Shown: in pieces, positions 1,520 through 18,729 of the stretch
Layout of the letters: each line of letters begins with the position of its first letter
How positions within the stretch are numbered: the stretch's first letter is position 1
From: Bacillota bacterium
GTDB lineage: Bacteria; Bacillota; Clostridia; Caldicoprobacterales; Xylanivirgaceae
Length of the DNA stretch: 46,771 bases
Assembly (NCBI GenBank): GCA_023621995.1
Contig: JAMOAB010000073.1
Coordinates: 1 to 46,771 of the forward strand
Direction of reading: 5' to 3'
Notes under the pieces: model-generated
Told to the model about the DNA's origin: nothing
The model's input: the letters and a program-made list of their open reading frames with translations, nothing else
The model's database searches: none
Program-made: the position numbers and the translations under genes

Positions 1520-4501
1520 ATGTTAGCAAAGTATAAGAACAGGTTATTATCAAAAGAATTTTTAAGTAACTATCCAGACTTCCCAGAACATATGACAGAG
1601 ATAGGGAAATTTGTATACTTGAGAACTTACTCAAGATGGCTTCCAGAAGAGCAGAGAAGAGAGACATGGAAGGAAACTTGTACTAGAGCAGTTGAGTATA
1701 ACTGTTCTTTAGCAAAAACTTCAAGACAAGAAGCAGAGGAGTTATTTGATGCTATGTTTAATCTAAAACAAGCATTAAGTGGAAGAACTTTATGGGTAGG
1801 AGGAACGGAAGTAGCAGAGAAGTATCCTCTATCAAACTTTAATTGCTTTAGAAGGGACACCGAGTTTCTAACTAAGGAAGGGATAAAAACTTTTTATGAT
1901 TTTGAGGATGGAGACATAGTAGAAGTTTTGAATGGAAACGGAGCTTGGAGTCCGTCAGTAGTTAGAAATTATGGAAAGCAAAAACTATTAAAATTAGTAG
2001 TTCAAAGACAAGGAACTAAATACACAGAGGATATATATGTTACAGGTAATCATATATGGTTTGTAAAAAAAGGAAATGAAAAGAGATATGTAGAAGTAAC
2101 TACTAGTAATTTAAAACCTGGTGATAAATTAAGAAGAAAAGTTAGATACGAGAATACTAATCTAAATATGTGCAACATAGGGATACAACATGGTATAGTA
2201 TTTGGAGATGGAACTTTTGATAAGAAAAAGGGACATTGTAGAGTATCTCTAATAGGGAAAAAACAAGATTACATTAAGTATTTTAATAATGCACCTACAA
2301 CTACAGAAGGGCATAGGGACTCAATTTTAGTTTATGGATTACCATATTACTTTAAGGATTTACCTCCAATAAATGCGAATGTTGAGTATATAAAAGGATT
2401 TATATATGGACTATTATTAACAGATGGTAGATTGGGGAGTAGCGTTAGACTAGGGCAGAAGAATTTAGAAGTAGTAAAACATTTACAGAGTATGTGTGAG
2501 ATTATAGGATTGACAACATCTAAGATAGTGGAAGTAAGTAGAACTAACAATAACTTTGGGGACTATGAAAATACCTATGAGTTTACTATTCATAAGGAAA
2601 CTTTAAGAAAACATGGTATGCTTGTAAGTAAAGCAGAAGAAAGAGAGTGGATAGTAAAAGAAGTATTAGAAACGGATTTATTAGAGGATGTATGGTGTGT
2701 AGAAGAGCCTAAAACTAACTCATTCACATTAAGAGGGGGAATACACACTCATAATTGTGCTTTCACTGTAATGGATAGTATAGAAGCAATAAGAGACCTA
2801 TTCTACTTACTAATGGTAGGAACAGGAGTGGGATTTAGGATACTAAAAGAAGATGTAGATAAATTTCCTAGAGTAAAGCAGAATGTAAAATTAACTCATA
2901 AAGAGTATGTTCCAAAACCTAAGATGCTTAGAGATGAATTATCATCACTAGAGTTCTCTGGAAATTCCCCTAAAGCTACTATTAGAATAGGGGACTCAAA
3001 AGAAGGATGGGTACAAGGGATAACTCATTATTTTGAAGTAATGACAAACCCTCTAATAAGAGTTGATGAGATTGAAATAGATTATGACTCTGTAAGACCA
3101 AAAGGAGAGAGACTTAAGACATTTGGAGGGACAGCCAGTGGATATGAGAGCTTACGAACTATGTTCCAGAAGATACACAATGTAATTACTACAGATATGT
3201 ATGCACCTAAACCAGAGAATGGGAAGTTAAGACCTATTCACCTTTTAGATATTTGTAATATCATAGGGGAGAATGTAGTAGTTGGAGGAGTTCGTAGAAC
3301 TAGTGAGATAGCTCTTTTAGATGAGGATGATATAGAGTCTATAGAAGCTAAATTAAATTTAACTCCAGAGAAATATCATAGGTTTATGAGTAATAATAGT
3401 ATTTACTATACTAAGAAACCTACAAGAGAGAAATTAGCATGGCAGTTCCAAGTACTAAAAGAAACAGGAGAGCCCGGTTTTGTAAATGCAGTAGAGGGTA
3501 AGAGAAGAAACCCTAATTTCAATGGAATTAATCCATGTGCAGAAGTACTTCTTGACAAAAACCAGACTTGTAATTTAACTACGGTTAATGTATTAGCATT
3601 TGTTTATTATAAAGATGGAAAAGCCCATTTAGACTTAGAAGGACTATTGCAAGCTCAAAGAAGGAGTGCAAGAGCTGGATTAAGAATGACAGAAGTAAAA
3701 TTAGAGCTCCCTAATTGGAATTACAAGCAGAAGAGAGATAGATTATTAGGTTGCTCAGTAACAGGCTTTAAAGATGCTATGGAAGCTCTAGGATACACTA
3801 AAGAGCAAGAGCAGGAGCTTGAGAGACTACTAAGAGATACAGCTAGAGAAGAAGCTAATAAGTATGCTGATGAATTAGGAATTAATAGACCTTTATTAGT
3901 TACAGCAGTTAAACCAGAAGGTACATTGTCTCAAGTATTTGGAGGAGTTAGTTCTGGATTACACCATGCTCACAGTCCATACTACATTAGAAGAATTAGA
4001 ATTAATGCCCATGACCCACTTTGTAAGACACTAGAAGCTAGTGGATGGGAGTTAAAGAATGAAGTAGGACAGGGAGAAGAATTTGGGACTCCAGTAATGA
4101 CTAAAGTAGTTGAATTTCCAATGTCCAGTCCAGCTAAGAGGACTAAGTATCAAGTATCTGCATTGGAGCAACTAGAGACCTACTACAGCTTCCAAGAGCA
4201 CTATACAGAGCATAATAGCTCCAATACCATTAGTGTAAAGAATGATGAGTGGGAAGATGTAGAACAGTATATTTGGGATAATTGGGACAGGACGTTAGCA
4301 GTATCATTCTTGAGTCTTACAGACCATATTTATCCATTAGCTCCTTACGAAGCTATTGATAAGGAAGAATATGAGCAAAGACTGGCTAATATGAAACCTA
4401 TTAATACAGAATTACTAAGACTCTTTGAAGTGGGCAATAGCGATGAAGCTGATTTAGGGGATAATGATGAGTGTGCTAGTGGAGTTTGTCCTATTAGATA
4501 A
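1520..4501 (+). CDS. adenosylcobalamin-dependent ribonucleotide reductase (class II) with intein
   Basis: Reduces ribonucleotides to deoxyribonucleotides for phage DNA synthesis. Removing the intein (residues 109-412) leaves 689 residues, close to monomeric RtpR/NrdJ reductases (about 740). Seen in the extein: NPCAEVLL then TCNLTTVN, whose cysteines are 11 apart as in the radical and redox pair C408/C419 of the Lactobacillus enzyme; VKPEGTLSQVFGG near the substrate phosphate site; and a C-terminal CASGVC for re-reduction. The cysteine directly after the intein (C413, context N-CAFTVMD) fits the other redox cysteine (C119 equivalent). A class II enzyme needs coenzyme B12 and no oxygen, fitting an anaerobic host. 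Ribosome site AAGGGGGA; terminator directly after the gene. Confidence 0.9.
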   Translation: MLAKYKNRLLSKEFLSNYPDFPEHMTEIGKFVYLRTYSRWLPEEQRRETWKETCTRAVEYNCSLAKTSRQEAEELFDAMFNLKQALSGRTLWVGGTEVAEKYPLSNFNCFRRDTEFLTKEGIKTFYDFEDGDIVEVLNGNGAWSPSVVRNYGKQKLLKLVVQRQGTKYTEDIYVTGNHIWFVKKGNEKRYVEVTTSNLKPGDKLRRKVRYENTNLNMCNIGIQHGIVFGDGTFDKKKGHCRVSLIGKKQDYIKYFNNAPTTTEGHRDSILVYGLPYYFKDLPPINANVEYIKGFIYGLLLTDGRLGSSVRLGQKNLEVVKHLQSMCEIIGLTTSKIVEVSRTNNNFGDYENTYEFTIHKETLRKHGMLVSKAEEREWIVKEVLETDLLEDVWCVEEPKTNSFTLRGGIHTHNCAFTVMDSIEAIRDLFYLLMVGTGVGFRILKEDVDKFPRVKQNVKLTHKEYVPKPKMLRDELSSLEFSGNSPKATIRIGDSKEGWVQGITHYFEVMTNPLIRVDEIEIDYDSVRPKGERLKTFGGTASGYESLRTMFQKIHNVITTDMYAPKPENGKLRPIHLLDICNIIGENVVVGGVRRTSEIALLDEDDIESIEAKLNLTPEKYHRFMSNNSIYYTKKPTREKLAWQFQVLKETGEPGFVNAVEGKRRNPNFNGINPCAEVLLDKNQTCNLTTVNVLAFVYYKDGKAHLDLEGLLQAQRRSARAGLRMTEVKLELPNWNYKQKRDRLLGCSVTGFKDAMEALGYTKEQEQELERLLRDTAREEANKYADELGINRPLLVTAVKPEGTLSQVFGGVSSGLHHAHSPYYIRRIRINAHDPLCKTLEASGWELKNEVGQGEEFGTPVMTKVVEFPMSSPAKRTKYQVSALEQLETYYSFQEHYTEHNSSNTISVKNDEWEDVEQYIWDNWDRTLAVSFLSLTDHIYPLAPYEAIDKEEYEQRLANMKPINTELLRLFEVGNSDEADLGDNDECASGVCPIR
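1844..2755 (+). mobile_element. intein with LAGLIDADG endonuclease in the reductase gene
   Basis: 304 codons. It begins with Cys (CFRRDTEFLTKEG, splicing block A) and ends IHTHN followed by Cys, a canonical C-terminal junction. VTGNHIWF fits block B. GIVFGDGTF and GLLLTDGRL are the two LAGLIDADG helices, so this is a full intein able to home at DNA level. Splicing would give SNFN-CAFTVMD, restoring the reductase next to an essential cysteine. Confidence 0.92.
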
Positions 4502-4508
4502 CAACTAT

Positions 4509-4530
4509 GGGGAGGTTATCCTCTCCTTTT
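4509..4530 (+). terminator. rho-independent terminator after reductase gene
   Basis: Seven-base stem GGGGAGG (4509-4515) with CCTCTCC (4520-4526), one G-U pair, loop TTAT, then TTTT. Confidence 0.7.
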
Positions 4531-4568
4531 ATTATGATGATGTGGACTTTAAATAAAGGAGAGATGAT

Positions 4569-4715
4569 ATGTTAAAATTCCTAAAGAGATTAAAATGTAA
4601 GCACGATTATAGAGTTATAGAAGTAATATACGGAGATAGGATTAATTATTTAGGGGCTAGGAATATACAAAGATGCACTAAATGTGGTAAGGAGATTTTA
4701 GGAGGAAAATTATAA
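4569..4715 (+). CDS. small zinc-ribbon-like protein, 48 aa
   Basis: Short frame starting MLKFLKRLKCKHDY and ending RCTKCGKEILGGKL, preceded by AAAGGAGAG at a suitable distance. One cysteine and a histidine near the N-terminus (CKH) and a CTKCGK pair about 30 residues later could bind one metal ion. Small proteins of this kind are common in phages of Firmicutes and their role is unknown. It lies between the reductase terminator and the kinase gene, whose ribosome site directly follows the stop codon, suggesting joint translation. Confidence 0.65.
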   Translation: MLKFLKRLKCKHDYRVIEVIYGDRINYLGARNIQRCTKCGKEILGGKL

Positions 4716-4727
4716 GGGGGAAATAAG

Positions 4728-5306
4728 ATGAAGAATAAAGTTATAATTATTGAAGGAGCACAGGGAGTAGGTAAGGGAACAATAACTAATATACTTAGGG
4801 AACAGATGCCTTATACAAACCTACTAAGACTATCTGGAACTAGTGATAAGACAGCAGAAGGAAAGAATAAAGTATACAACATTAGGGTAGCAGAATTAGA
4901 TATGATAAGAAATAGTAGATTTTGTGATATAAACTTTATATTAGATAGAAGCTATTTATCGGAAGTAGTATATTGTAAAATTGGCTATAAAGATTATACA
5001 TTTGAAGAAGAGAGCCTTAATCTTAATAACTTCTTAAATGAATTGACTAATTATTATGATGTCTATGTAATAGTACTTACAGCTACTCCAGAGGAGTTTG
5101 AGAAAAGGTTAAAAAGAGACAAGCCAGAGTTCTTAAATTTAAAGTTCAATCCGGATAGTAGTATTAGACAGCAGAAAGCATATTTAGAAGAGATGCGTAA
5201 CTTAAAGAGAACTTACCCTGCAATTAATTGTTATGAAGTTCCTACTAGTGGTAGAGACCCTTATGATATAGCTTATGATATATTAAGTGTAGTGAGGAGA
5301 GATTAA
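4728..5306 (+). CDS. deoxynucleoside/thymidylate kinase-like P-loop protein
   Basis: 192 residues. A Walker A loop GAQGVGKGT is at residues 10-18 after a short beta strand (VIIIE). ILDRSYLSEVVY about 60 residues further fits the DR(S/Y) motif of the thymidylate kinase and deoxynucleoside kinase superfamily. EEFEKRLKRDKPEF resembles their lid region with basic residues. The enzyme would phosphorylate a nucleoside or nucleoside monophosphate, consistent with neighbours making dNTPs (reductase, dUTPase, deoxyribosyltransferase). The exact substrate cannot be read from the sequence. Ribosome site AAGGGGGAA precedes the ATG. Confidence 0.72.
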   Translation: MKNKVIIIEGAQGVGKGTITNILREQMPYTNLLRLSGTSDKTAEGKNKVYNIRVAELDMIRNSRFCDINFILDRSYLSEVVYCKIGYKDYTFEEESLNLNNFLNELTNYYDVYVIVLTATPEEFEKRLKRDKPEFLNLKFNPDSSIRQQKAYLEEMRNLKRTYPAINCYEVPTSGRDPYDIAYDILSVVRRD

Positions 5307-5308
5307 AG

Positions 5309-5337
5309 TTGACAAACATATGCTTACTTGTTATAAT
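5309..5337 (+). promoter_or_regulatory. consensus sigma-A promoter
   Basis: TTGACA (5309-5314), 17-base spacer, TATAAT (5332-5337) with an extended TGT. The -10 lies in the near-palindrome CTTGTTATAATAAG, which could also bind a regulator. It drives the cluster from 5367. Confidence 0.85.
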
Positions 5338-5366
5338 AAGTATACCTAATTTAAGGAGGGAAAATA

Positions 5367-5729
5367 ATGTATATTGAAAACGAGCCTAAAGTAGAAGAGA
5401 TAATCTATGAGGACACAGTAATAAACTTCTGTCCTATAGGGAAGAGTCTCTACAGAAACAATTTAACTATCATAATTCATCCAGACAAGATTCTTCCAGA
5501 TTATATTGAGGTGCATAAAGAAATAAGAGAACTTGAAGGTAAAAGCCTTATTATTGAAGAAGTAGTAGATTTAGTATTAGATATTATAAAGAGATATAAT
5601 CCTCATAGAGCTAAAGTAACAACTATTGTAGATGATGCTAACCACCCTAAAGTAACTATTTCAAAGACATATGTAAGACCAGAAGAAATAACTTTAAAGG
5701 GGTGTAATTGTGAAAAAGAAAGCTGTTAA
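5367..5729 (+). CDS. unassigned protein, possibly tunnelling-fold (QueF-like)
   Basis: 120 residues. The order of segments, FCPIGKS, a strand, HPDKILPDYIEV, GKSLIIEEVVDLVLDIIK (a helix) and two strands (AKVTTIV, PKVTISKTYV), recalls the T-fold of QueF-type nitrile reductases, where CP and ESKSL motifs are key. The match is loose and the usual QueF glycine/arginine motif (RGG) is missing. It ends with a cysteine-rich tail (GCNCEKESC). First gene after a consensus promoter; the next gene starts inside its 3' end. A role in deazaguanine or pterin chemistry is only a guess. Confidence 0.45.
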   Translation: MYIENEPKVEEIIYEDTVINFCPIGKSLYRNNLTIIIHPDKILPDYIEVHKEIRELEGKSLIIEEVVDLVLDIIKRYNPHRAKVTTIVDDANHPKVTISKTYVRPEEITLKGCNCEKESC

Positions 5730-6198
5730 AGCTCCTTCTAAACCTAAGAAGCAGAAGATACAAGTTAAGGAAGCTGATGGAAAAGTTAAAGTGATAGGGG
5801 AATATGACCCTAACACAAAGATTTTCACTTGTAAGAGAAGAAGAAGTGAACACTTAATGAGGAAATGGATGGCGTGGGGATTAGATGCAAAGGCTGTAGA
5901 CTTCTTATCCAAAGAACGTGCTATAGTACATTTAAAAGATACAGAAAGTAAATGGGAATATAAGTGTGAAGCCATAGACTTTAAGATAAAAGGAAAACTG
6001 GAAGAGTTCCACCAACACAGACCTCAATACTTCTTACCTTTAGAGGAGTGGGAAGTAGTTAAAGCAAAGAATAGAAGTATGGTAATAGAGTGTTTAGAGA
6101 AAGACTGCAAACATAACTTTGGAAACCAATGTATGAGAGGAGTCATTAGGCTGGGAGAAAAGGGGGAATGTGTGAGCTATGAAGAGAAATTTGAATAA
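5710..6198 (+). CDS. basic protein with C-terminal Cys motif, function unknown
   Basis: Starts at GTG 5710, 20 bases inside the previous gene, with an AAAGGGG site upstream. The N-terminus is very basic (KKKAVKAPSKPKKQK), suggesting nucleic-acid contact or disorder. The C-terminus has CLEKDCKHNFGNQC then a fourth cysteine (GECVSYEE), a spacing like the small DUF1540-type metal-binding motifs. Overlap with the genes before and after (ligase start at 6179) indicates translational coupling. I do not recognise the central part. Confidence 0.55.
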   Translation: MKKKAVKAPSKPKKQKIQVKEADGKVKVIGEYDPNTKIFTCKRRRSEHLMRKWMAWGLDAKAVDFLSKERAIVHLKDTESKWEYKCEAIDFKIKGKLEEFHQHRPQYFLPLEEWEVVKAKNRSMVIECLEKDCKHNFGNQCMRGVIRLGEKGECVSYEEKFE

Positions 6199-7417
6199 TA
6201 TTATAGTAGATAATGGGAGAATCATAGATAAAGATACTGGGGAAATATTAGGAGTAACATCCCCTAAATTCTCCAACTGGGATTATGTTAAGTACCTAGA
6301 GGAGTTTAATACAACTAAGGAAGTAAGATTTTTAGAGCCAATGACAGCTCAAGAACTTGATGATGACAAGCTCCAGAAGCATTTAGCAGAGAATAAGGTA
6401 GTAGGGGAGCAAAAATTTGATGGACATAGGGGATTAGTATTTATAACATCTAAAGGAAATAGGATATTTAGTAGAAGAGTCAGTAAACAAACAGGATGGT
6501 ATGCAGAGAATACAGACTGTATGCCACATATTAGAGACATAGTAGTTCCAGAGGATTTGTATGGAACTGTAATTGATGGAGAGATATTATTACCTATAGA
6601 GAATTGTTCGTGTAGACAAGTACAGAGTGTAACTGGAGCTCTCCCAGAGACAGCTATTAAGTATCAATTAGAGAATGGATTTGCTTATTTAAGTGCCTTT
6701 GACATCTTATACTATAAAGGGATTAATATTCAAAAGATGCCTTTATGGAAGAGGAAAGTATACCTATGGGAAGTGCTTCTAAAGATTAAATCAGACTTTA
6801 TTAGTATGTGTACTTTATACTGTAATCAAGAGACTATGGACTACTTAAAGTTTAAGTGGAAAGAGTACGGAGCAGACCAAGAGCTAATTGATAGTCTAGT
6901 ATTAGTACATGACTTTGAACAGCAGTTTAGAGAGTTCCTAAAGGAAAGTAAAGAAGGACTAATAATCAAGGACATTGAGGGGATATATGAGCAGAAGAGA
7001 AGTAAAGCATTTGTTAAGATGAAAGCTCATAAGACCTATGATGTAGTTATTATGGGATATGAAGAGCCTACTAGAGAGTACACAGGTAAGGAATTAGACA
7101 CATGGGAATATTTTGACTATGATGGAACTCCTGTAACCAAGTATTATTACAATAACTGGATAGGGGCAGTAATCTTTGGGGTATGGAAAGATGGAAAGCT
7201 TATAGAAGTAGGAAGAACTTCTGGAATGGATGAAGAGACTAGACAGCTTCTGTCAGAGAATAGAGAAGAGTATCTAGGGCAAGTAATAGAAGTAGAAGCA
7301 CAAGGAATAATTAATAAGGATACTGGAAGCCTACAGCATCCTAGGTTTATATGTATGAGACCAGATAAATCAAGTGAGATGTGTACCTTTGAAGCTCACA
7401 TAAGGGAGGAAAAATAA
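6179..7417 (+). CDS. ATP-dependent DNA ligase
   Basis: 412 residues with the nucleotidyltransferase motifs of ATP-dependent ligases: GEQKFDGHRG with the AMP-accepting lysine at residue 79, SRRVS (motif Ia-like), VIDGEILLP, EGLIIKDIEG and FVKMKAHKTYD. The C-terminal part (about 290 onward) should be the OB-fold domain. It seals nicks using ATP, likely in phage replication. The start at 6179 overlaps the previous gene by 20 bases and follows AAAAGGGGGAA. The stop overlaps the next start (TAATG). An RNA ligase is less likely given the overall motif spacing but is not excluded. Confidence 0.85.
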   Translation: MKRNLNNIIVDNGRIIDKDTGEILGVTSPKFSNWDYVKYLEEFNTTKEVRFLEPMTAQELDDDKLQKHLAENKVVGEQKFDGHRGLVFITSKGNRIFSRRVSKQTGWYAENTDCMPHIRDIVVPEDLYGTVIDGEILLPIENCSCRQVQSVTGALPETAIKYQLENGFAYLSAFDILYYKGINIQKMPLWKRKVYLWEVLLKIKSDFISMCTLYCNQETMDYLKFKWKEYGADQELIDSLVLVHDFEQQFREFLKESKEGLIIKDIEGIYEQKRSKAFVKMKAHKTYDVVIMGYEEPTREYTGKELDTWEYFDYDGTPVTKYYYNNWIGAVIFGVWKDGKLIEVGRTSGMDEETRQLLSENREEYLGQVIEVEAQGIINKDTGSLQHPRFICMRPDKSSEMCTFEAHIREEK

Positions 7418-7716
7418 TGACAACAGAATTGTGGTTAAAGAGTGGAGAAGCATTACAGTTCTTTGGAGGAATATTTATGATAGTAACATATATACCTCAA
7501 ATAAGGATGTTACTGAAAACAAAATCAGCAGAAAATCAAAGTAAGTCATTCTGGATATTACTAATAGTATCCTTAAGTACTTTCACTTACAATGCAGTTT
7601 TATTGTACATCTTTAAAGGAGTGCTGTCAGTACTAGTTACTCAAGCATTAAACTTAATTTTAGCATTAATCATATTAGCATTACTAATTAAGTATTCTAA
7701 GAAGGGGAGAAAATAA
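7417..7716 (+). CDS. PQ-loop (SemiSWEET-like) membrane protein
   Basis: 99 residues with three hydrophobic segments (about 12-30, 43-62, 66-92). The first two flank MIVTYIPQIRMLLKTKS, containing the proline-glutamine PQ motif, and SAENQSKSFW follows as in single-repeat SemiSWEET/MtN3 proteins. Those dimerise to move sugars or similar small molecules across the membrane. The gene is coupled to the ligase by TAATG and is followed 2 bases later by a nucleoside deoxyribosyltransferase, so a nucleoside or sugar substrate is conceivable but unproven. Rare cargo for a phage. Confidence 0.72.
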   Translation: MTTELWLKSGEALQFFGGIFMIVTYIPQIRMLLKTKSAENQSKSFWILLIVSLSTFTYNAVLLYIFKGVLSVLVTQALNLILALIILALLIKYSKKGRK

Positions 7717-7717
7717 T

Positions 7718-8212
7718 ATGAAAGCATATTTAGCAACTAACTTTTTTGACTTATTTGGATTTGAGGGAACAGCAAAGATAGCAGAGAGGATACGAGAAGC
7801 ATTTCCTCAATTAGAGTTATATGTTCCCCAAGAGAACAAGGAAATTAATGACAAGAAGAATAATGATGACATCATAACAGATATAGCTATCTATAAAGCA
7901 GATGCTAGGGAGTTATTATCTAGCCAGATTTTAATAGCTTATTTAGATGGAGTGGAGATAGACGCAGGAGTAGCAGGAGAAATAGGAATGTTTGTAGGCT
8001 CATTAGAGACTCTTAAGGCTTTAGGAATTAGACATACGCCTAAGATAGTAATAGGACTTTATACAGACATGAGACAACATGGAACTGGAGATAACCATAT
8101 GTATAGGAACTTATTCATAAAGGGAGCTATAAATGAGTGGGGATGTGTAGTAGAGACTGTAGATGAAGTAATAAAGTTAATGGATGACTTTATAACTAAT
8201 TATCCAGTATAG
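7718..8212 (+). CDS. nucleoside 2-deoxyribosyltransferase-like protein
   Basis: 164 residues. It starts MKAYLATNFFD, typical of the Rossmann-like deoxyribosyltransferase family. IAYLDGVEIDAGVAGEIGM matches the family motif in which D and E act in base and sugar binding. DNHMYRNLFIKGAI is a typical C-terminal element. The family exchanges bases between deoxyribonucleosides, or hydrolyses nucleotides in relatives. With the reductase, kinase and dUTPase genes upstream it fits deoxynucleotide salvage. Ribosome site AAGGGGAG before the ATG. Last gene before the terminator-promoter unit leading to the head genes. Confidence 0.8.
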   Translation: MKAYLATNFFDLFGFEGTAKIAERIREAFPQLELYVPQENKEINDKKNNDDIITDIAIYKADARELLSSQILIAYLDGVEIDAGVAGEIGMFVGSLETLKALGIRHTPKIVIGLYTDMRQHGTGDNHMYRNLFIKGAINEWGCVVETVDEVIKLMDDFITNYPV

Positions 8213-8231
8213 AGAGATTGTCAAGACCCTC

Positions 8232-8260
8232 TTTAAATATTTTATAATTAATGGTACAAT
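8232..8260 (+). promoter_or_regulatory. promoter of the packaging/head operon, overlapping a terminator
   Basis: TGG-TACAAT extended -10 at 8252-8260 with TTTAAA at 8232-8237, 17 bases apart. An alternative is TTGTCA (8218) with TATAAT (8243). The region resembles 15346-15386 (GTCAAG, TTTAAA, TTTTATA, TACAAT in the same order), suggesting a shared class of promoter. Confidence 0.55.
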
Positions 8261-8295
8261 AAGCCTAGATAGAATTTATCTTGGCTTATTTTTTA
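8258..8295 (+). terminator. terminator upstream of terminase gene
   Basis: AATAAGCC (8258-8265) pairs with GGCTTATT (8283-8290), with an inner stem AGATA/TATCT, followed by a T run. The 5' arm overlaps the -10, so a transcript started here lacks that arm and escapes, while read-through from upstream would stop. Confidence 0.75.
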
Positions 8296-8314
8296 TGCTT
8301 TTAAAGGAGGAATT

Positions 8315-11300
8315 ATGATGGCAAAGATAACAACCACAGAGTTAGTTAATAAGATATTTGCTTTTTGTGAAGCCTATTCTGGAATTGAGCTTTTCCCATA
8401 TCAAGCACAGTTTGGGAAGAGAATAATAAGGTCTGTATTGGAGAATGATGGGGAAGAGATAACAGCTCTTTTCGCAAGACAATGTTTAGTAGGAGATACA
8501 TTAGTTCACATGGCAGATGGAACTAAAAAGCCTATAAAAGAAGTTGAAGTAGGAGAGAAAGTATTAGCATTTGATTATAACACCCTAGTAGAGAGGGAAG
8601 TAATTGACAGTTATAGAGTCGGAAAGAGAGAAGTTTACCGATTAAGATTAAAGAGTGGGTACGAAATTGAATGTACACCAAACCACAGATTTTTAGATAG
8701 AGGAACTAAGATGTTTAAAGAGTTAGCTAGATTTGAAGCAGGAGATGAGATAGGCTACTTAGATGAGAATGGAAAGACTAAATTCTCAAGAATTAAGAGT
8801 ATAACATTTATGGGAGAAAAGGAGACTTATGACCTTGAAGTAGAAGGAGCAGAAAACTTCTTAGCTAATAATATACTAGTGCATAATAGTGGGAAATCAG
8901 AGACAGTAGCTACAATATCTGGAGGATTAGCAATTATTTTACCTATATTAGCTAATATGCCTATGTTTGTTACTGATAGAAGATTGGATATGTTCAAGAA
9001 TGGGATAATGATAGGTATATTTGCACCTACATTAAGACAAGCTCAAATAACATTCTCAAGAATGAAGAAGAGAATGAATAGTATTCATGCTCAAGCTATC
9101 TTATCCGACCCAGAGATAAATATAAGTTTTGATGTATCAAATGGACAGAATATAATTCTTTCTAATGGCTCACTTATTAGTTCACAGTCAGCTAGTGAGG
9201 GCTCTAATATAGAAGGTGACTCATATATGCTTATTATAGTGGATGAGTCACAGGATGTTGGAAACTTCAAGTACTCTAAATGTCTATCAGAGGACACAGA
9301 AGTGTGGTTACCCAATGGCTCCAAGGCAACTATTAAAGATGTTGTAGAGAATAAGATGGATGTAGTGACATTAGATGGGATTAGGACTCCAGATGAGTTT
9401 TATAATAATGGAATACAGCCTGTATATGAACTTACCTTATCTAATGGGAGAAAGATTGAAGCAACAGAAAACCATCAATTCTATGTTAGAAGAAGAATAG
9501 GGAATAGAGTTCCTAAATGGGATACTGTGAGTAATATAGAAGTTGGGGATACCATAGCAGTACCAAAAGAAATGCCTTACTTTGGGGATAAGTATAATCA
9601 AAGACAAGGGCAACTTGTAGGATTTATGCTAGGGGATGGATGCATGACGGGGGATAGTCCAATGATATGTGTAAATAAGAAAGTAAGAGACTATATCATC
9701 CCCTATTTACTTAGAGATTTTGAAAATACTGAATACAAAGAAACAACTTACAATGAGCAGAAAGATTTAAGTGAAGGTTATTTTAAGAGAATTAGTAGGA
9801 AAGGTAATAAAGAAGGGGAGCTAAAGTTATTTTTAAAGGAGTTAGGGATTTGGGGATTAAAAGGCTCTGAAAAAACAATTACTCCCCAGATATTTAATGC
9901 TAGTAAATCATTTTTAAAAGGACTAGTAATGGGTTTAATAGAAAGTGATGGAAGTGTATCTAATAATGAGATAGTATTTAGTAATACTTCTGAAAGCCTT
10001 GTTAGAGGATTTCAAGATATACTTCTTAAATTTGGAGTACCTAGTAGAGTTAGTGTAAGAGAGCAGAATGGCGATTTTGGAAAAAATCCTAAACCTATAT
10101 GGAGTTGCACTATCAAGAGTAAAGAGGGGATATTAAAGTTCTTTGGTGAGTTTGAACTATTTACTAAACAGAAAAAACTAGTCCAATTAGTAAGAAAAAT
10201 CGAAGCTAAGAATGGAAATAGAAAAGTAGTGAATGATGTAAGGAGAGGTAAATTTAGAGATGATATATATTTTGAGAGAGTTGTTAGCAAAAAGTTAATA
10301 GGAGAAAAGCCAACTTACTGCTTGAAAGTAGAGGGAAGAAACTTTATAGCTAACGGGATTGTATCGTCTAACTCAATCTCACCCATGGGAGCTTTCTACA
10401 ATGCTACTAAGATACTTATAGGAACATCAACAACTCAAAAAGGCTTCTTCTATGAGTCTATTGAGAGAAATAAGAAGGAATATGCTAATGGAGGAAAGAG
10501 AAATCACTTTGAGTATAATTATAAAACAGTAATTAAGTATAACCCTAAGTATGAGAAGTATATAGAAGGAGAGAAGAAGAGAATAGGAGAACATTCAATA
10601 ACGGGGGATAGAAATGTTACAGTTAGGATAAATGGATTGATTACTACAATACCTATAGAGGAGCTTTATAACTTATTTAGTAATGCTAGTAATCAAGGGG
10701 AAGGAAAGGTAGCACCTACAAATTTAGAGGCTCTTTCAGCTTCAAAAGGTAAAGTAATAAATAGTTTATTTGACCTAAAGGAATATCATTTAACTCCGAA
10801 GCAAATACCTATTATAAAAGCTCTGCAAGAAATAGGGCATACAAATTACAATTATAAACAATTGATAGCAGAAAAAACAGGATTGAGCTTAAATAGAGTA
10901 TCTCATGTATTAGCCTATGTTAGAAAATTAATGAAGCAGGGATATTATTATGAAATAGTACCTGAATGGAATAAGGTAACTAATATTATCAAACATAAAA
11001 ATAAACATAATATTTATAGAATGAGTAATGGGCAGGGAGAAATAGTAGTTACTGAATGTCACTCTTTAATGGAAGTAGCAAAGGATGGACTAAGAGAAGT
11101 TAAACCACTACAAGCATCTGATTTGTATAGGATAAGAGAAATCCCGATTGACAGTTATTTAGACTTTGTGGATTTTAATTTCCTTTTAGATTTGAATACT
11201 GAAATATATAATGAACATAGTTTTACTCAATTTGTAAAAGAAGATGGATTTATAAAGTTAGTATCTAGGAGAGATAAAACCCCTAGTATAAGGATAAGGG

Positions 11301-13693
11301 AGAAACTTGAAGTAGGCTCCGAAGAATATAAAGCCTTTTGTAGGATACTTGGAGCTTATGTTTCAGAAGGACATGTTTTACAAAGAGATTTAACCGCAGG
11401 AATTTCAAGTAATAATATTGAATGGATTCGTCAGTTACAGAAGGATGTGCAACTAGTGTTTAATTATAATGCTCCTATAGTTATTAGCAATAAATTAAAC
11501 TCTAAAGGGGAAAATTATGATGAAACGTACAGACTTTGCTTAAATAGGAAATTAATTGGAATTATTTTAAAAATATTATGTGGGCAGGGAAGTCATAATA
11601 AAAAGATACCTAATTTCTTATTTAACGTAAGTGGAGATAATGTAAAAGATTTCTTAAAGTATTTAGTTGAAGGTGATGGATATAAGATAAAAGGAGAAAG
11701 TAACTTTGGATACATTACTGCTTCACTTCAATTAGCTAGTGGATTACAATTATTACTAACCCAATTAGGGAGAAGTGTCCATGTACAAAGGAATAAAAAT
11801 GGGTATTATATATTAAAAACTCAAGAAGAGGGGATTTTAAATAGACGAACTAAGTTAGAGTTAGAATTATTAGGTAAGAATAATTATGAATATGTCTATG
11901 ACTTGGAAGTGGAAAATGCTCATACATTTGTAGATAGTTTAGGACAAGTGTTGCTTCATAACTCGGATGAGTTCCAAATGTCTTATAATTTAAAGTGGAT
12001 ATTAGAGAGAGGTATGTTTGTTAGTGGGAAGTTATTTGATGAGTTAGCAGACCCTCATAGGGGACTCTCTATAATGGATACTAAGAACTCCCATGTAGTA
12101 GGAATAGACTTAGGAAAGAAACAAGATAGTACAGTTATAACAGTATTAGAAGTAGACTGGGATAATCCTACAATAGTAGATAAAGCACAGGAAGCAGGAG
12201 TACCAGATTATATAGCCTATCCAGTATTCATTAAAGCATGGAAAGAGATACAGGGAGACAACTGGAATGAGCAGTATGACATTATAATGGACTTTCTAAG
12301 TAACTTTAATGTAGTAAGAATAGTAATGGATGCTACAGGAGTAGGGGATGCAATATATGATAGATTAAGAGCTAACTTAAATTATGAAGTAGTTCCTTAT
12401 GTACTTAGTAGACAATCTAAGAGTGATTTATACAAGCACTTAAATTCAGAGTTCAGAGCTAAGAGAGTTCGCTATCCAGCAGATGAAGAGACAAGGGAGA
12501 CAATAGAGTTCAAAAAATTTCAACAGCAATTCTTAGATTTAGAGAAGGGATATAGTGGGCAGTTAATGGTAGTATCTCACCCAAATATAGCAGGAGCACA
12601 TGATGACTACTGCTTATCTCTAAACACTGAAATACTAACAAAACGAGGTTTCTTAAAGTACAACGAACTTACAGAAAATGATTTAGTAGCTAAAGTTGAA
12701 AATAACAAGATAACCTATGTAAAACCAAACAAAGTAATAATAAAGGATTATAAAGGGAAGATGTATAGATTTAAGTCTAAAGATTTATGTTTAGAAGTTA
12801 CAGAGAACCATAAGATGTTATTAAGAGATAAGGCTAAGAGGGAATTAATAACATTATCTCAAGAGTTAACTTTAAAAAGTAGTAAAACCTTATATAGTAA
12901 CTTTAGTATTCCAGTAGCCCCAATTCAAGATGAAAAGGAATACCCTATATCAGATGAATTATTAAAATTATGTGCATGGTTAATTACAGAAGGTTGGATA
13001 AATAAAGATAATAAATACAACTCATATAGATACTCCGTAGCCCAATCAAGTAATAAAGAAGGACATAATAGAATAAGTTCCTATATAGCTAAGCTAGAGT
13101 TAGAGCCTTACGTATATACAAGAGGAGACGGAGTAACTTATTGGACATTCCATAAGAAAGATAATGAATTGTTTGATAACATACTAAAAGAAGGTATTCA
13201 CAGAATACCTAGAGAGTGGCTAAGTAATTTATCACAAAGACAACTAAAGTTATTATTAGATGAACTTATGTTAGGGGATGGGACATTATCAAGGAATACT
13301 TACCACACAAAAAGTTTAGAGTTAGCTAGAGATTTTCAAGAGTTAGCTCATAAAGTTGGGATAAAAACATCTATTAGAAAGCAAGTTAGACAGAATAATC
13401 ATACTATGTACGCTTGTTATTTAATGAAGCAAGATGAAACTAGAATACAATCTTATGATGTATATAACTATAAAGGTAAAGTTTGGTGTGTTAATGTAGA
13501 TAATGGATTTATAGTAACTAGATGTGACAATAAAATAGCTGTAACAGGAAATTGTGATAGCTTGGCTCTAGCAGTATGGGGAGCTAAAGGGGATGAAGTG
13601 TATAGACCAGTAACAGAGAAAGAGAATATATATAAGAAAGCATCATCTAATTTTGTTCAAGCAATAAACAGATTTACAGCTAAAAGAAGATAA
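8315..13693 (+). CDS. terL: terminase large subunit carrying four inteins
   Basis: ATPase-nuclease that cuts and packages phage DNA. The 1792-codon frame holds 1269 intein codons; the spliced protein would be 523 residues, a usual TerL size. Extein motifs: Walker A FARQ-SGKSE (split by intein 1), Walker B YMLIIVDESQD, a coupling region KSISPMGAFYNA (split by intein 2), IGTSTTQKG, the RNase H-like nuclease motif GIDLGKKQDST, VRIVMDATGVGD, and HDDY-CDSLALA (split by intein 4). Intein 3 lies between ATPase and nuclease domains (GEH-SDEFQMS). ATG codons at 8315 and 8318 both follow AAAGGAGG; 8318 has better spacing (7 bases). No small terminase gene is recognisable next to it. The portal gene follows 14 bases later. 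Confidence 0.95.
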   Translation: MMAKITTTELVNKIFAFCEAYSGIELFPYQAQFGKRIIRSVLENDGEEITALFARQCLVGDTLVHMADGTKKPIKEVEVGEKVLAFDYNTLVEREVIDSYRVGKREVYRLRLKSGYEIECTPNHRFLDRGTKMFKELARFEAGDEIGYLDENGKTKFSRIKSITFMGEKETYDLEVEGAENFLANNILVHNSGKSETVATISGGLAIILPILANMPMFVTDRRLDMFKNGIMIGIFAPTLRQAQITFSRMKKRMNSIHAQAILSDPEINISFDVSNGQNIILSNGSLISSQSASEGSNIEGDSYMLIIVDESQDVGNFKYSKCLSEDTEVWLPNGSKATIKDVVENKMDVVTLDGIRTPDEFYNNGIQPVYELTLSNGRKIEATENHQFYVRRRIGNRVPKWDTVSNIEVGDTIAVPKEMPYFGDKYNQRQGQLVGFMLGDGCMTGDSPMICVNKKVRDYIIPYLLRDFENTEYKETTYNEQKDLSEGYFKRISRKGNKEGELKLFLKELGIWGLKGSEKTITPQIFNASKSFLKGLVMGLIESDGSVSNNEIVFSNTSESLVRGFQDILLKFGVPSRVSVREQNGDFGKNPKPIWSCTIKSKEGILKFFGEFELFTKQKKLVQLVRKIEAKNGNRKVVNDVRRGKFRDDIYFERVVSKKLIGEKPTYCLKVEGRNFIANGIVSSNSISPMGAFYNATKILIGTSTTQKGFFYESIERNKKEYANGGKRNHFEYNYKTVIKYNPKYEKYIEGEKKRIGEHSITGDRNVTVRINGLITTIPIEELYNLFSNASNQGEGKVAPTNLEALSASKGKVINSLFDLKEYHLTPKQIPIIKALQEIGHTNYNYKQLIAEKTGLSLNRVSHVLAYVRKLMKQGYYYEIVPEWNKVTNIIKHKNKHNIYRMSNGQGEIVVTECHSLMEVAKDGLREVKPLQASDLYRIREIPIDSYLDFVDFNFLLDLNTEIYNEHSFTQFVKEDGFIKLVSRRDKTPSIRIREKLEVGSEEYKAFCRILGAYVSEGHVLQRDLTAGISSNNIEWIRQLQKDVQLVFNYNAPIVISNKLNSKGENYDETYRLCLNRKLIGIILKILCGQGSHNKKIPNFLFNVSGDNVKDFLKYLVEGDGYKIKGESNFGYITASLQLASGLQLLLTQLGRSVHVQRNKNGYYILKTQEEGILNRRTKLELELLGKNNYEYVYDLEVENAHTFVDSLGQVLLHNSDEFQMSYNLKWILERGMFVSGKLFDELADPHRGLSIMDTKNSHVVGIDLGKKQDSTVITVLEVDWDNPTIVDKAQEAGVPDYIAYPVFIKAWKEIQGDNWNEQYDIIMDFLSNFNVVRIVMDATGVGDAIYDRLRANLNYEVVPYVLSRQSKSDLYKHLNSEFRAKRVRYPADEETRETIEFKKFQQQFLDLEKGYSGQLMVVSHPNIAGAHDDYCLSLNTEILTKRGFLKYNELTENDLVAKVENNKITYVKPNKVIIKDYKGKMYRFKSKDLCLEVTENHKMLLRDKAKRELITLSQELTLKSSKTLYSNFSIPVAPIQDEKEYPISDELLKLCAWLITEGWINKDNKYNSYRYSVAQSSNKEGHNRISSYIAKLELEPYVYTRGDGVTYWTFHKKDNELFDNILKEGIHRIPREWLSNLSQRQLKLLLDELMLGDGTLSRNTYHTKSLELARDFQELAHKVGIKTSIRKQVRQNNHTMYACYLMKQDETRIQSYDVYNYKGKVWCVNVDNGFIVTRCDNKIAVTGNCDSLALAVWGAKGDEVYRPVTEKENIYKKASSNFVQAINRFTAKRR
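8483..8887 (+). mobile_element. TerL intein 1 (mini-intein) in Walker A
   Basis: 135 codons. It begins CLVGDTLVHMADGTKKPI, has CTPNHRFL as block B and ends NNILVHN followed by Ser. No LAGLIDADG or HNH segment is present, so it is a Hint-only mini-intein that can splice but not home by itself. Splicing restores FARQ-SGKSE, the ATP-binding loop; without it TerL cannot bind ATP. Confidence 0.93.
9281..10372 (+). mobile_element. TerL intein 2 after Walker B, with LAGLIDADG endonuclease
   Basis: 364 codons from CLSEDTEVWLPNGS to ANGIVSSN, followed by Ser. Block B is ATENHQFY. LVGFMLGDGCM and GLVMGLIESDGSV are the two endonuclease helices. The residue before the terminal Asn is Ser, not the usual His. 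Splicing gives NFKYSK-SISPMG, 14 residues after the DESQD motif. Confidence 0.9.
10595..11962 (+). mobile_element. TerL intein 3, Ser-initiated, with LAGLIDADG endonuclease
   Basis: 456 codons, the longest of the set. It begins with Ser (SITGDRNVTVRINGL), a known alternative first residue, and ends QVLLHN followed by Ser. VTECHSLMEV fits block B. ILGAYVSEGHV and YLVEGDGYKI fit the endonuclease helices. About 100 residues with helical, winged-helix-like character separate block A from block B, longer than in the other inteins, possibly an extra DNA-recognition domain. Splicing gives RIGEH-SDEFQ. Confidence 0.88.
12611..13552 (+). mobile_element. TerL intein 4 in the nuclease HDD motif, with LAGLIDADG endonuclease
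   Basis: 314 codons from CLSLNTEILTKRGF to KIAVTGN, followed by Cys. VTENHKMLL is block B; LCAWLITEGWI and LLLDELMLGDGTL are endonuclease helices. The penultimate residue is Gly rather than His. Splicing restores HDDY-CDSLALA, the metal-binding motif of the nuclease active site. Confidence 0.9.
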
Positions 13694-13707
13694 GGAGGAG
13701 ATAAATT

Positions 13708-15306
13708 ATGGCTTATGATTTTGTCAGTAAAACGAGCTTTACAGATATGATGAATATTAGTCTCTTAAGTTTAGGGGAACAATTAAATCCAGAAGATGTT
13801 AAGAGATTATCTGAATATCGTAGGAAGTGGAATTTCTATGAAGGTTATCATTGGGAGGAGCTACCTCCAAGTGGGAAAGCAGAAGTAACAAAGAATTACT
13901 GTAGAGCATTTGTTAATAAGTTTGTAGCGTTTGAGCTAGGGAAGGGATTTAGCATAAAAATGAAACCTCATGTAGAGGAAGCAATAGTACCTTACTTAAA
14001 TGAAGTATGGGATGATAATAAAAAAGAGCAGTTCTGTTTAGAGTTAGGGCAAACTAAGAGTGTAACAGGAGATGCGTGGATACAAGTAACTTTCCAACCT
14101 AAGTTTAATGATGATGGTACTCTTAATCCAAATTTCTATGACCCATACGATGAGTACGAGAAGGGGAGAGTAAGAGTAGTAGTAGTACCCCCTCATATAT
14201 GCTTCCCAGAGTATGATGATGGATATGATAAGGAAGTAATGAGAAAGTTCACTATCATGTATCCTATTAGACAAAATCCAGATGAGCCTAGTAAGACCAG
14301 AACACTTGTATATAAACAAGTGTGGTATAGAGATAGAGTGGAAGTGTACTATGGAAAAGACTTAGCAGGGACTTATGTAAATAAATATGGAATTATTCCT
14401 TTCTTTCATTGTAAGAACTTACCCCTAGCTGGAAGGAATACTGGAGCAAGTGATTTAGATGACCTTATTCCACTAAATGTAGAGCTTAATTTGAAGAGTT
14501 CAGATGTATCTGAAATTATAGACTACCACAGTGCTCCAGTAACAGTAGTGTATGGAGCAAGAATAGGGCAACTTGAAAAGGGAGCTAATAAAGTATGGGG
14601 AGGGCTACCAAAGGATGGAAAAGTAGAGAACCTAGAACTAAGAGGAGACCTTTCAGCAAGTACTAACTATATTCAAGACCTTAAACGAGCTATGCACGAA
14701 ATAGGAGGAATACCAGAAGGAGCATTAGGAAAGGAGACAGCTATTAGTAATACATCTGGAGTAGCACTTCAAGTAACAATGCTACCTCTTATAGAGAAAG
14801 TACAACAGAAGAGAGCTCTAACAGCTCAATGTCTTAGAGAAGTTAATAAGTTCATTATTAAGATAGGATTAGAAGAGGGACTAATAGACGCAGACCTATC
14901 AAAGTGGAGGAAGGATGACAGATATTCAAAGGACATCTACCAAAATGAAATAATCTTTGAGGATAACTTACCAAAAGATAAGTTAGTAGAGATACAAGCT
15001 ATCCAATTAGAGATGAAGTTAGGACTTGAAGATAGAGAAGGTGGAATGAAGAGGTTAGGAAAGAAAGACATCCAGAGAAGATTAGAAGAGATAGATAGAG
15101 ATAGAGAAGAGTACCCAGAGATATATGGACTTCCTACAGAGGAAGAGAAAGAAGCTATGAAACAAGGTTTAGAGTTTAAGAAAAAACAATCTAAAGAAAA
15201 AGATATTATGAAGAGAGACCTCAATGAGAATAAAGCTAATAATGATGGACAAGTCAATGCAGGATTTACCAATTCTCCAGAGAAACAACAGAGTACTAAC
15301 TCTTAG
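13708..15306 (+). CDS. portal protein
   Basis: 532 residues. It follows the terminase gene directly and has the SPP1 gp6-like portal character: WNFYEGYHWEELP near the start, FVNKFVAFELGKGFSIKM, IPFFHCKNLPLAGRNTGASDLDDLIPLNVELN and GIPEGALGKETAISNTSGVALQ. The last about 80 residues are charged and helical, ending in an Asn/Gln-rich tail. Twelve subunits form the ring through which DNA enters the head. Ribosome site AAGGAGG upstream. The stop codon lies in the loop of a 27-base hairpin. Confidence 0.9.
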   Translation: MAYDFVSKTSFTDMMNISLLSLGEQLNPEDVKRLSEYRRKWNFYEGYHWEELPPSGKAEVTKNYCRAFVNKFVAFELGKGFSIKMKPHVEEAIVPYLNEVWDDNKKEQFCLELGQTKSVTGDAWIQVTFQPKFNDDGTLNPNFYDPYDEYEKGRVRVVVVPPHICFPEYDDGYDKEVMRKFTIMYPIRQNPDEPSKTRTLVYKQVWYRDRVEVYYGKDLAGTYVNKYGIIPFFHCKNLPLAGRNTGASDLDDLIPLNVELNLKSSDVSEIIDYHSAPVTVVYGARIGQLEKGANKVWGGLPKDGKVENLELRGDLSASTNYIQDLKRAMHEIGGIPEGALGKETAISNTSGVALQVTMLPLIEKVQQKRALTAQCLREVNKFIIKIGLEEGLIDADLSKWRKDDRYSKDIYQNEIIFEDNLPKDKLVEIQAIQLEMKLGLEDREGGMKRLGKKDIQRRLEEIDRDREEYPEIYGLPTEEEKEAMKQGLEFKKKQSKEKDIMKRDLNENKANNDGQVNAGFTNSPEKQQSTNS

Positions 15307-15325
15307 TGAGTTAGTACTTCTTCTC
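15292..15325 (+). terminator. hairpin at end of portal gene, probable terminator
   Basis: AGTACTAACTC (15292-15302) and GAGTTAGTACT (15308-15318) are perfect inverted repeats with a 5-base loop containing the portal stop codon, then a T-rich stretch TCTTCTCTT. The weak T run makes it a moderate terminator. Confidence 0.55.
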
Positions 15326-15357
15326 TTGTAATAATAAAACTTTTTCTGTCAAGTGGG

Positions 15358-15386
15358 TTGTTTAAAATAATTTTATATAGTACAAT
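15358..15386 (+). promoter_or_regulatory. promoter for the scaffold and capsid genes
   Basis: TTGTTT (15358-15363), 17 bases, TACAAT (15381-15386). The flanks share GTCAAG, TTTAAA and TTTTATA with the promoter before terL. It lies about 100 bases before the 52-aa gene, leaving a long leader in which I see no other structure. Confidence 0.6.
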
Positions 15387-15491
15387 TACTATTGATAAGA
15401 ATTATCATTAGATGTATTGTGGTTTTAATGTAGAATTAATTTTGTCCTCATTACTTATTATATAAATTAAAATCCAAAGGAGGTAATTTGC

Positions 15492-15650
15492 ATGGCTAAA
15501 GACCTATATCATGGAGATGGCAATTCAACAGTAAGAAGTTCTATTCCTACTAAAATTAAGAATAAGGCTGGAAAGACTGACCCAGAGATAAAAAATGCTG
15601 GGAAATTGCTAAAAACCAAGAAGAAAGTTCAAAAAGGCTGGAGTAAGTAA
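15492..15650 (+). CDS. small basic head-region protein, 52 aa
   Basis: Frame MAKDLYHGDGNSTVRSS to KKVQKGWSK, preceded by AAAGGAGGT 10 bases upstream. Fifteen lysines or arginines make it strongly basic. It sits between portal and scaffold under its own promoter. I do not recognise it; a small head or DNA-binding protein is possible. Confidence 0.6.
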   Translation: MAKDLYHGDGNSTVRSSIPTKIKNKAGKTDPEIKNAGKLLKTKKKVQKGWSK

Positions 15651-15689
15651 TCCAGTAAATACAATTAAATTTTATAAGGAGGATTTATT

Positions 15690-16460
15690 ATGAAAACCAA
15701 CAAGACATTATTGGAGAAAGTGTTAGAGAGATTAAACATGGGAATTAGACAAACACTTGCTGATGAAGGAGAGGGGGAAGGTAATACTCCAGCACAGCCA
15801 GATGGAGGAAACCAAGACCCAACACCTAACACTCCACCGACTCAACCTAATATAGATTTTGAGAGCTTAATTGCTAAAGCTCGTAAGGAAGAAAAAGAAA
15901 AACTCTACCCAGAAATCACTAAGTTGAAGGAAGAAGTGGAGAAGAAGGTGGCTCGAATTAATGAGTTGTTATTAGCTATAGGAGAGAAGGATGAAATCAT
16001 ATCTCAAAAAGATAAAGAGATAAAAGAGTTAAAAAATAACTCTAAAAAGTCAGATAGTCAAGAAGTGAAAGATTTAAAGATAAAAATTACAGAGCTAGAG
16101 AATAAACTAGCAGAGAAAGATAGAGAGATAAATACAATTAAATTAGCTAGTTATAGGGACAAGAAGATAGCAGAAGCAGGAGGAGAATTAATCCCAGAAT
16201 TAGTTACTGGAAATAGTGAAGAGGAAATTGACTTATCAATAGAGAAAGCTAAAGAACGATATAGAGAAATCGTTAGTAAAATAACTTCTCAACAGTCAAT
16301 AAAACCTCAAAATTCTAATAACATACCTCCAGCAAACCCTAACACTAGCACATTTACTAACAGTCAAGTAAGTACACAAAGTTTAAGTGGACTTAATCTT
16401 ATGACCCCAGAGGGAAGAGCAGAGTATGAAAGGATACGAAAACAACTGGGGCTAAAATAA
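15690..16460 (+). CDS. head scaffold protein
   Basis: 256 residues, directly before the capsid gene as scaffolds are. After an acidic, Pro/Gln/Asn-rich stretch (30-52) there is a long charged coiled coil (about 58-152, KLKEEVEKKVARINELL and similar heptads), then AEAGGELIPELVTGNSEEEID, and a short C-terminal segment (MTPEGRAEYERIRKQLGL) that may bind the capsid protein. Scaffolds guide capsid assembly and leave before packaging. No protease motif seen. Ribosome site AAGGAGG. Confidence 0.8.
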   Translation: MKTNKTLLEKVLERLNMGIRQTLADEGEGEGNTPAQPDGGNQDPTPNTPPTQPNIDFESLIAKARKEEKEKLYPEITKLKEEVEKKVARINELLLAIGEKDEIISQKDKEIKELKNNSKKSDSQEVKDLKIKITELENKLAEKDREINTIKLASYRDKKIAEAGGELIPELVTGNSEEEIDLSIEKAKERYREIVSKITSQQSIKPQNSNNIPPANPNTSTFTNSQVSTQSLSGLNLMTPEGRAEYERIRKQLGLK

Positions 16461-16487
16461 TGGACAATTAAAAGGAGGAGAATAAAT

Positions 16488-17531
16488 ATGAATAAATTAC
16501 TTAAATTATTCATTAGAACAGCTAGAGCTGATGAAATCAATACAGTAACTCAACCTACTGGCACACAACTAGATGGAGGTACTGCTATCAAATTAGACAA
16601 CCATGTTAGAACTGTTTACTCAAAGGAAATCGAATTTAAGGCTATGCCTATTATGAGATTTGTTCAATTTGCTAAAGTTAAAACTGAATTAGGGACTCAA
16701 CCCGGTCTTACAATTCAGATGATGACTTATAACAACTTGAAAAAAGGTGGAGCATTAACAGAGGGAGTAAGAATGTCTCCACAAAGTTTAAGCTCAACAA
16801 TGAAGTCCATTACTGTAGGTGAAAGAGGAAATGCTGTAGCTGTTTCAGAACTAGCATTAAAAGCATCTTTTACAGACATTATGGCAGATGCTACAACTCT
16901 ATTATCACGTGATGTTGCTTTAACACTTGATACAGAGTTAAGAGATACAGCTCTTTCTGGAGCTAATGTAATCTATGGTAGAAAAGCTGATGAAGCTAAA
17001 ATAGATTCTAGGGCTGATATTACAAAAGATAACGTATTAACAGTAGCTACAATTAAGGATGCTGTAGAGATATTAGCTACAAACAATACTCCTAAGTTCC
17101 AAGGAGCTTATTATATTTGTTTCGTACATCCACATCAATCAAGAGTTCTTAGAGACGACCCTGCATGGGTAGAAGCATCTAAGTATGGAGCTCCAGACCA
17201 ATTATTTACTGGAGAAATCGGTAGGATTGACGATGTTCGTTTCATTGAGACTACCTTAATGTGTAATGGAGCTGTGGGGAAAGATGACCCAGCTTACAAA
17301 GCAGAATTGTTATTAGACCCAGATGGTACTGCTGACTCTGGAGATGAAGTTCCAGTATATCAAGCTGTTCTATTTGGAGAAGATTACTATGCTTATGCTG
17401 TAGGACTTCCAGTAGAGCTAAGAGACAACGGAGTTACAGACTTCGGTAGAGAGCATGGATTAGCTTGGTATGCAATTTGGGGAACAGGATTACTTCACCC
17501 AGAGAGAGGAGTAGTTATAGAGACTGCTTAA
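16488..17531 (+). CDS. major capsid protein (N4 gp56-like family)
   Basis: 347 residues with the HK97-type order of this family: MRFVQFAKVKTELG, GGALTEGVRMSPQSLSS, GNAVAVSELALKASF, DVALTLDTELRDTAL, YYICFVHPHQSRVLRDDPAW, GEIGRIDDVRFIET and DYYAYAVGLPVELR. Codon use is richer in GCT, CGT and ATC than in neighbours, as expected for the most highly translated gene. The first about 15 residues (MNKLLKLFIRTARA) are basic and hydrophobic. Ribosome site AAAGGAGGAG; a strong terminator hairpin follows. Confidence 0.9.
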   Translation: MNKLLKLFIRTARADEINTVTQPTGTQLDGGTAIKLDNHVRTVYSKEIEFKAMPIMRFVQFAKVKTELGTQPGLTIQMMTYNNLKKGGALTEGVRMSPQSLSSTMKSITVGERGNAVAVSELALKASFTDIMADATTLLSRDVALTLDTELRDTALSGANVIYGRKADEAKIDSRADITKDNVLTVATIKDAVEILATNNTPKFQGAYYICFVHPHQSRVLRDDPAWVEASKYGAPDQLFTGEIGRIDDVRFIETTLMCNGAVGKDDPAYKAELLLDPDGTADSGDEVPVYQAVLFGEDYYAYAVGLPVELRDNGVTDFGREHGLAWYAIWGTGLLHPERGVVIETA

Positions 17532-17541
17532 AATATAAACT

Positions 17542-17580
17542 AGGGGATGGGGAGGATATTTCCTCTTCCCCTTTACTTTA
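17542..17580 (+). terminator. terminator after capsid gene
   Basis: AGGGG plus GGGGAGGA (17542-17556) pair with TCCTCTTCCCCTT (17561-17573) around loop TATT, followed by TTACTTTA. Outer and inner stems are separated by a small bulge. It may act as a partial terminator so that capsid exceeds tail transcripts. Confidence 0.65.
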
Positions 17581-17598
17581 GTAAAGGAGGAGTTTATA

Positions 17599-17934: not shown

Positions 17935-17952
17935 TAGAGGGGATGGATACAA

Positions 17953-18717: not shown

Positions 18718-18729
18718 GGAGGGGTATAA

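Follow-up and report, generated by a model that had tools for sequence, protein, structure and literature searches.

Inteins in terminases and other multi-intein genes

The closest described systems are the large terminases (TerL) of mycobacteriophages, in which inteins occupy seven different sites, none of them outside the ATPase domain (Kelley et al. 2016, PMC5050341); the five inteins that were assayed spliced fast, and endonuclease activity was demonstrated. In 2021, two inteins were described in the TerL of a crAss-like phage, which belongs to a group whose genomes contain as many as three inteins and 14 introns, an abundance that the authors called unprecedented (PMC7886860). The ribonucleotide reductase (RNR) of Trichodesmium erythraeum is on record as a gene with four inteins (Liu et al. 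2003, cited in PMC1635734 and PMC4649490), and the haloarchaeal helicase MCM has four intein sites, with homing interference measured in this gene (PMC10643990).

Here we analyze a TerL gene with four predicted inteins that is encoded in a stretch of 46,771 nucleotides from a Bacillota bacterium assembly (hereinafter, the window). Like the mycobacteriophage TerL, this protein has inteins in the vicinity of the P-loop and of the Walker B and C motifs; it differs in that a single gene carries all four inteins, including one in the nuclease HDD motif, and no multi-intein TerL is noted in the available part of that study (PMC5050341). With the crAss-like phage it shares the presence of several in-frame inteins in the TerL of an uncultured phage with an intein-rich genome, whereas the crAss-like TerL inteins are of the Hint-Hop type, accompanied by TAG recoding, and number two in TerL and at most three per genome, compared to four and at least eight here (PMC7886860). 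The haloarchaeal MCM, although an archaeal helicase, resembles this TerL in that several nearby homing sites in one conserved gene are filled in varying combinations (PMC10643990). In contrast, the Trichodesmium RNR is a bacterial gene that also contains group II introns and is neither a phage gene nor a terminase. A homologous intein (41% identity) lies at exactly the second of the four sites in the TerL of Bacteroides phage BS162P1 (OP172706, L101), but it is the single intein of a more distant TerL (~34%).

We also found a phage gene outside the terminases that is apparently comparable in intein number, namely, a glycosyltransferase-like ORF of 1853 codons (L104, IMG/VR 3300044580_000126, positions 3451-9009) with what appear to be four Hint/LAGLIDADG inserts, the junctions of which were read from this sequence alone; these inserts are the nearest relatives of intein 4 that were found (25-28%). 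The third insert of this ORF has a non-standard C-terminal junction (GKSNWTCRSD). The original prediction that four inteins in one terminase gene are exceptional has to be qualified, given the precedents of four per gene in the Trichodesmium RNR and apparently in L104, and the published TerL with two. The gene encodes the most intein-laden terminase among the sequences searched, extreme in the number of inteins and with an additional site in the nuclease domain; the mechanism is familiar.

The TerL gene and its four inserts

The ORF at positions 8315-13693 of the window is a single unbroken frame of 1792 codons, and the probability that a stop-free frame of this length appears by chance is about 1e-70 at the base composition of the window. 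Four in-frame segments (aa 57-191, 323-686, 761-1216 and 1433-1746; Table 1) account for 70.8% of the codons, and joining the exteins after their removal yields a TerL of 523 aa. In profile searches, the spliced protein matches Terminase_6C above the cut-off and Terminase_6N weakly; annotated terminases of Streptomyces phages are 36-37% identical to it, and its nuclease domain matches the TerL nuclease 5tge (phmmer). Judging by sequence, the spliced product is a T4-like/Terminase_6 large terminase that consists of an ATPase domain with Walker A and B motifs and an RNase H-like nuclease domain, with the portal protein gene adjacent.

Table 1. Coordinates of the TerL exteins, the inteins and the neighboring portal gene in the window (a slash marks a splice junction)
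Feature	Position	Strand	Remarks
RNR intein, 304 aa, LAGLIDADG-like	1844..2755	+	NFN/CFRRDT...THN/CAFTV; ribonucleotide reductase ORF 1520-4501
TerL extein 1 (aa 1-56)	8315..8482	+	stops within Walker A, ...ALFARQ
Intein 1, 135-aa mini-intein	8483..8887	+	Cys1; block B TPNH; HN/S; inside Walker A, RQ/SGKS
TerL extein 2	8888..9280	+	SGKSETVA...Walker B LIIVDE...FKYSK
Intein 2, 364 aa, Hint + LAGLIDADG	9281..10372	+	Cys1; TENH; end SSN/S; soon after Walker B
TerL extein 3	10373..10594	+	
Intein 3, 456 aa, Hint + LAGLIDADG	10595..11962	+	Ser1; TECH; HN/S
TerL extein 4	11963..12610	+	SDEFQMSYNLKW..., RNase H-like nuclease domain to AHDDY; PF17289 Terminase_6C
Intein 4, 314 aa, Hint + LAGLIDADG	12611..13552	+	Cys1; TENH; end TGN/C; inside nuclease HDDY/CDSLA
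TerL extein 5	13553..13693	+	CDSLALAVWG... to stop
Portal protein gene	13708..15306	+	directly 3' of TerL; phrog_64 3.8e-48

Searched segment by segment, each of the four inserts gives at least one match above the cut-off to an NCBIfam intein end domain or to PF14890 (Intein_splicing). The PF14890 profile exceeds its cut-off in inteins 1 (67.1 bits) and 2 (61.6 bits), falls slightly under the cut-off of 35.8 bits in intein 3 (34.9 bits) and is weak in intein 4 (17.4 bits). The NCBIfam intein_Nterm profile scores above the cut-off in inteins 1, 2 and 4 (30.5 bits in the latter) and has no match in intein 3, and intein_Cterm does so in inteins 1, 2 and 3 (22.1 bits in intein 3). LAGLIDADG_3 was detected above the cut-off in inteins 2 (46.9 bits), 3 (28.5 bits) and 4 (44.5 bits), with the recognizable helix pairs FMLGDG and LIESDG, YVSEG and LVEGDG, and LITEG and LMLGDG, respectively; each of these helices contains an acidic residue, and the three inteins are accordingly predicted, as candidate homing endonucleases, to cleave DNA. 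The original prediction that one TerL contains four in-frame inteins, of which three have LAGLIDADG motifs and one is Hint-only, held to the residue, and its lengths of 135, 364, 456 and 314 aa, its share of 71% of the 1792 codons and its product of 523 residues were all reproduced. The top Foldseek matches of an AlphaFold2 model of intein 4 (mean pLDDT 62.5) are the inteins TliVMA (7qss) and PI-SceI; the model of intein 3 is too poor for use (mean pLDDT 49.8).

The residues at the splice junctions are C..N/S in inteins 1 and 2, S..N/S in intein 3 and C..N/C in intein 4 (first residue, last residue and the +1 position), and block B contains a TxxH motif in all four (Table 1). The penultimate residue is His in inteins 1 and 3, Ser in intein 2 and Gly in intein 4; the penultimate His of block G is variable among inteins. 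In block F of inteins 2 and 4, there is a Cys where Asp is frequent. These unusual penultimate residues, together with the low profile scores of inteins 3 and 4, could be taken to indicate that at least one intein is splicing-dead, so that the gene is decaying or a helper TerL is supplied by a co-infecting phage. We regard this as very improbable: all 1792 codons are open and the main splice residues intact, the extein DNA is 92% identical to that of the close relative L007 with the motifs conserved, and no second TerL was found in the bin. Moreover, three other phages have inteins at site 2 that likewise combine Cys in block F with the absence of the penultimate His, which suggests that the variant in inteins 2 and 4 is a working one, apparently a lineage trait, rather than a sign of decay. 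The motifs, the profiles and the empty sites in relatives confirm, at the level of sequence comparison, that the four inserts are class-1-type inteins, with splicing predicted for all four.

Intein 3 contains about 100 additional residues between blocks A and B. Within this region, aa 53-130 or thereabouts are partly helical in the poor model and have a winged-helix match under the threshold (HTH_24, E=0.0047); the extra region is possibly a DNA-recognition domain within the Hint region.

Insertion sites, empty sites and the origin of the inteins

All four inteins interrupt conserved and for the most part catalytic regions of the packaging motor. Site 1 divides Walker A, site 2 lies a dozen residues past Walker B (DESQDVGNFKYSK/SIS), site 3 falls on SDEFQMSY, a conserved motif in the late part of the ATPase domain, and site 4 is within the HDD motif of the nuclease; we take these motif assignments from the alignment and from general knowledge of T4-like terminases. 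The five residues on each side of junctions 1 to 4 fall in the 97th, 91st, 98th and 96th percentile, respectively, of TerL conservation, and such high conservation around the junctions is what homing into conserved targets predicts. The same positions are those where activity should be blocked, and the inteins could accordingly have been turned into regulators, with slow or conditional splicing that prevents TerL from working before late infection or ties packaging to a host signal, in line with the stress response of mycobacterial DnaB inteins (PMC6195587). However, homing equally predicts insertion into conserved motifs, and three of the four inteins retain endonuclease motifs that are typical of mobile elements. 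Furthermore, there is no sign of a shared need for the inteins, given that three of them are missing from L007 and all four from most of the relatives found, and the assayed mycobacteriophage TerL inteins spliced fast (PMC5050341). A delay of terminase activity until late infection, a possibility raised in the original prediction, and the wider reading that four successive splicing steps, each at a position essential for the motor, jointly act as a timer or sensor of DNA packaging are therefore improbable, and we consider it highly probable that the four inteins entered conserved codons by independent homing and that each is removed by protein splicing.

To assess the junctions, the spliced TerL was compared with 67 distinct relatives from IMG/VR, 64-67 of which span each junction, without a gap in the five residues on either side of it in any of them. 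The 64 at junction 1 include L007, which contributes there not extein but the tail of intein 1. The homologues without inteins among these 67 keep no residues of the four segments, and the junctions show no mismatch to the extein alignment.

The most informative relative is L007, which is 92.4% identical to the window at the nucleotide level across 1401 nt of extein. Its DNA matches window blocks 8770-9274, 10370-10597, 11963-12613 and 13553-21530, that is, it lacks inteins 2, 3 and 4, with the breakpoints at the predicted junctions, to the codon. The remnant of intein 1 that is retained on the L007 contig (117 nt) is 99% identical to the window. Co-conversion would be expected to raise the number of mismatches around the insertion sites, but the comparison of the window with L007 showed no clear rise. 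Precise loss of inteins is rare, and it is therefore simpler, and on this comparison probable, that inteins 2, 3 and 4 were gained once the lineage had separated from L007; loss, or replacement by recombination, in L007 is the alternative. This near-identical relative with three empty sites represents a natural experiment on multi-intein invasion of an essential gene, with a bearing on mutual homing interference of neighboring inteins and on the cost to the virus of four obligatory splicing steps.

The four inteins are mutually distant, the main match being 34% over 100 aa, and are therefore not recent duplicates of one another. In other phages, site 1 is occupied in L107, L108, L109 and L110, and homologous inteins are found at site 2 in BS162P1, L107 and L108, so that L107 and L108 carry two inteins each, at sites 1 and 2. 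L109, the TerL of which is about 70% identical to the one analyzed here, has a mini-intein at site 1 that is 51% identical to intein 1; this similarity suggests that intein 1, having lost its endonuclease, has long been inherited vertically. In the scenario that we favor, the inteins are mobile elements that would have entered conserved codons in separate events of endonuclease-driven homing, intein 1 being the old one, deprived of its endonuclease, and inteins 2, 3 and 4 probably arriving after the divergence from L007.

With respect to donors, an IMG/VR search for close relatives yielded no match for intein 2 and distant matches only for inteins 3 and 4, and no close-sequence donor for any of these three was found in IMG/VR. 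Scans of other members of this TerL family with exact patterns or close-relative queries, which would miss many cases, found none in which site 3 or 4 is occupied. A candidate site-3 intein detected by a DNA pattern match (L111) proved to be the native GENSDEFQ sequence, a false positive. The site-4 DNA pattern retrieved two near-identical contigs (L112 and L113) with an intein at HDDF/C of a different terminase; the position of this intein (L112:889-1905) corresponds to site 4. A search of genome contigs with the precursor had a single match, in a Thermosipho bin, to a phage contig that encodes a TerL without an intein; in searches of the host order and phylum, no other TerL of this family with an intein was detected.

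Two other observations pertain to inteins in related genes. MT835482 contains an intein at a further TerL site, and the site-2 intein of L108 (L108:5775-6917) ends in Gln instead of Asn (IISGQ/S), a rarer C-terminal residue.

The phage genome

The end of the window shares an exact 114 bp with the start of C40 (G000:C40), a contig of 43,262 bp from the same bin, and the end of C40 likewise overlaps the start of the window, so that the two contigs can be joined to form a circle of about 89.8 kb; by these overlaps, the phage genome is apparently complete and circular. Its size is similar to that of relatives of 84-94 kb, in which TerL and homologues of C40 genes are located on one contig.

The host bin is fragmented into 175 contigs, and intein content varies between strains, as in relatives such as L007, so one could suspect that intein variants of different strains were joined in one contig during assembly. 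An artefact of this kind is hardly plausible, given that every intein is flanked, in frame, by extein codons unique to it, that the exteins make up one complete TerL with nothing duplicated, and that the two phage contigs circularize by exact 114-bp overlaps; it is possible that the population is mixed for single inteins. The genome encodes at least eight inteins, namely, the four in TerL, one in RNR (Table 1) and three on C40, where DNA polymerase I, an 860-aa protein and a helicase-loader-like ATPase each contain one. For a small genome of about 90 kb, this is an unusually large number of inteins. No RNA introns were detected in the window with Rfam.

Within this genome, the 1792-aa protein would be the precursor of one TerL packaging motor that combines ATPase and nuclease, and the four independent class-1-type inteins would excise themselves and ligate the five exteins into the active TerL. 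Only one TerL copy was found in the host bin, and packaging of the phage DNA presumably requires four successful splicing events because of that; the dependence on four splicing events, also part of the original prediction, is a sound deduction from the sole TerL and the apparently complete, circular genome. For annotation, the case is a warning, in that profile searches show an odd protein of 1800 aa instead of a terminase of 523 aa.

Several other features of the window and the bin were noted. Another phage-like contig of the same bin (L002, G000:C115), the ends of which do not overlap the window, has an intein in its DNA polymerase I. At positions 488-1504 of the window, a single ORF encodes both an HNH/NUMOD4 homing endonuclease (aa 9-168) and a dUTPase (aa 203-317), through either fusion or invasion. 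The window further contains a diversity-generating retroelement (36502-38054) that consists of a reverse transcriptase ORF (36993-38054, phrog_1423), an RT-17 RNA identified with Rfam (36880-36981) and a pair of 142-nt repeats (36502-36643 and 36710-36851, 83%), the first copy of which lies at the 3' end of a tail protein gene (34523-36646).
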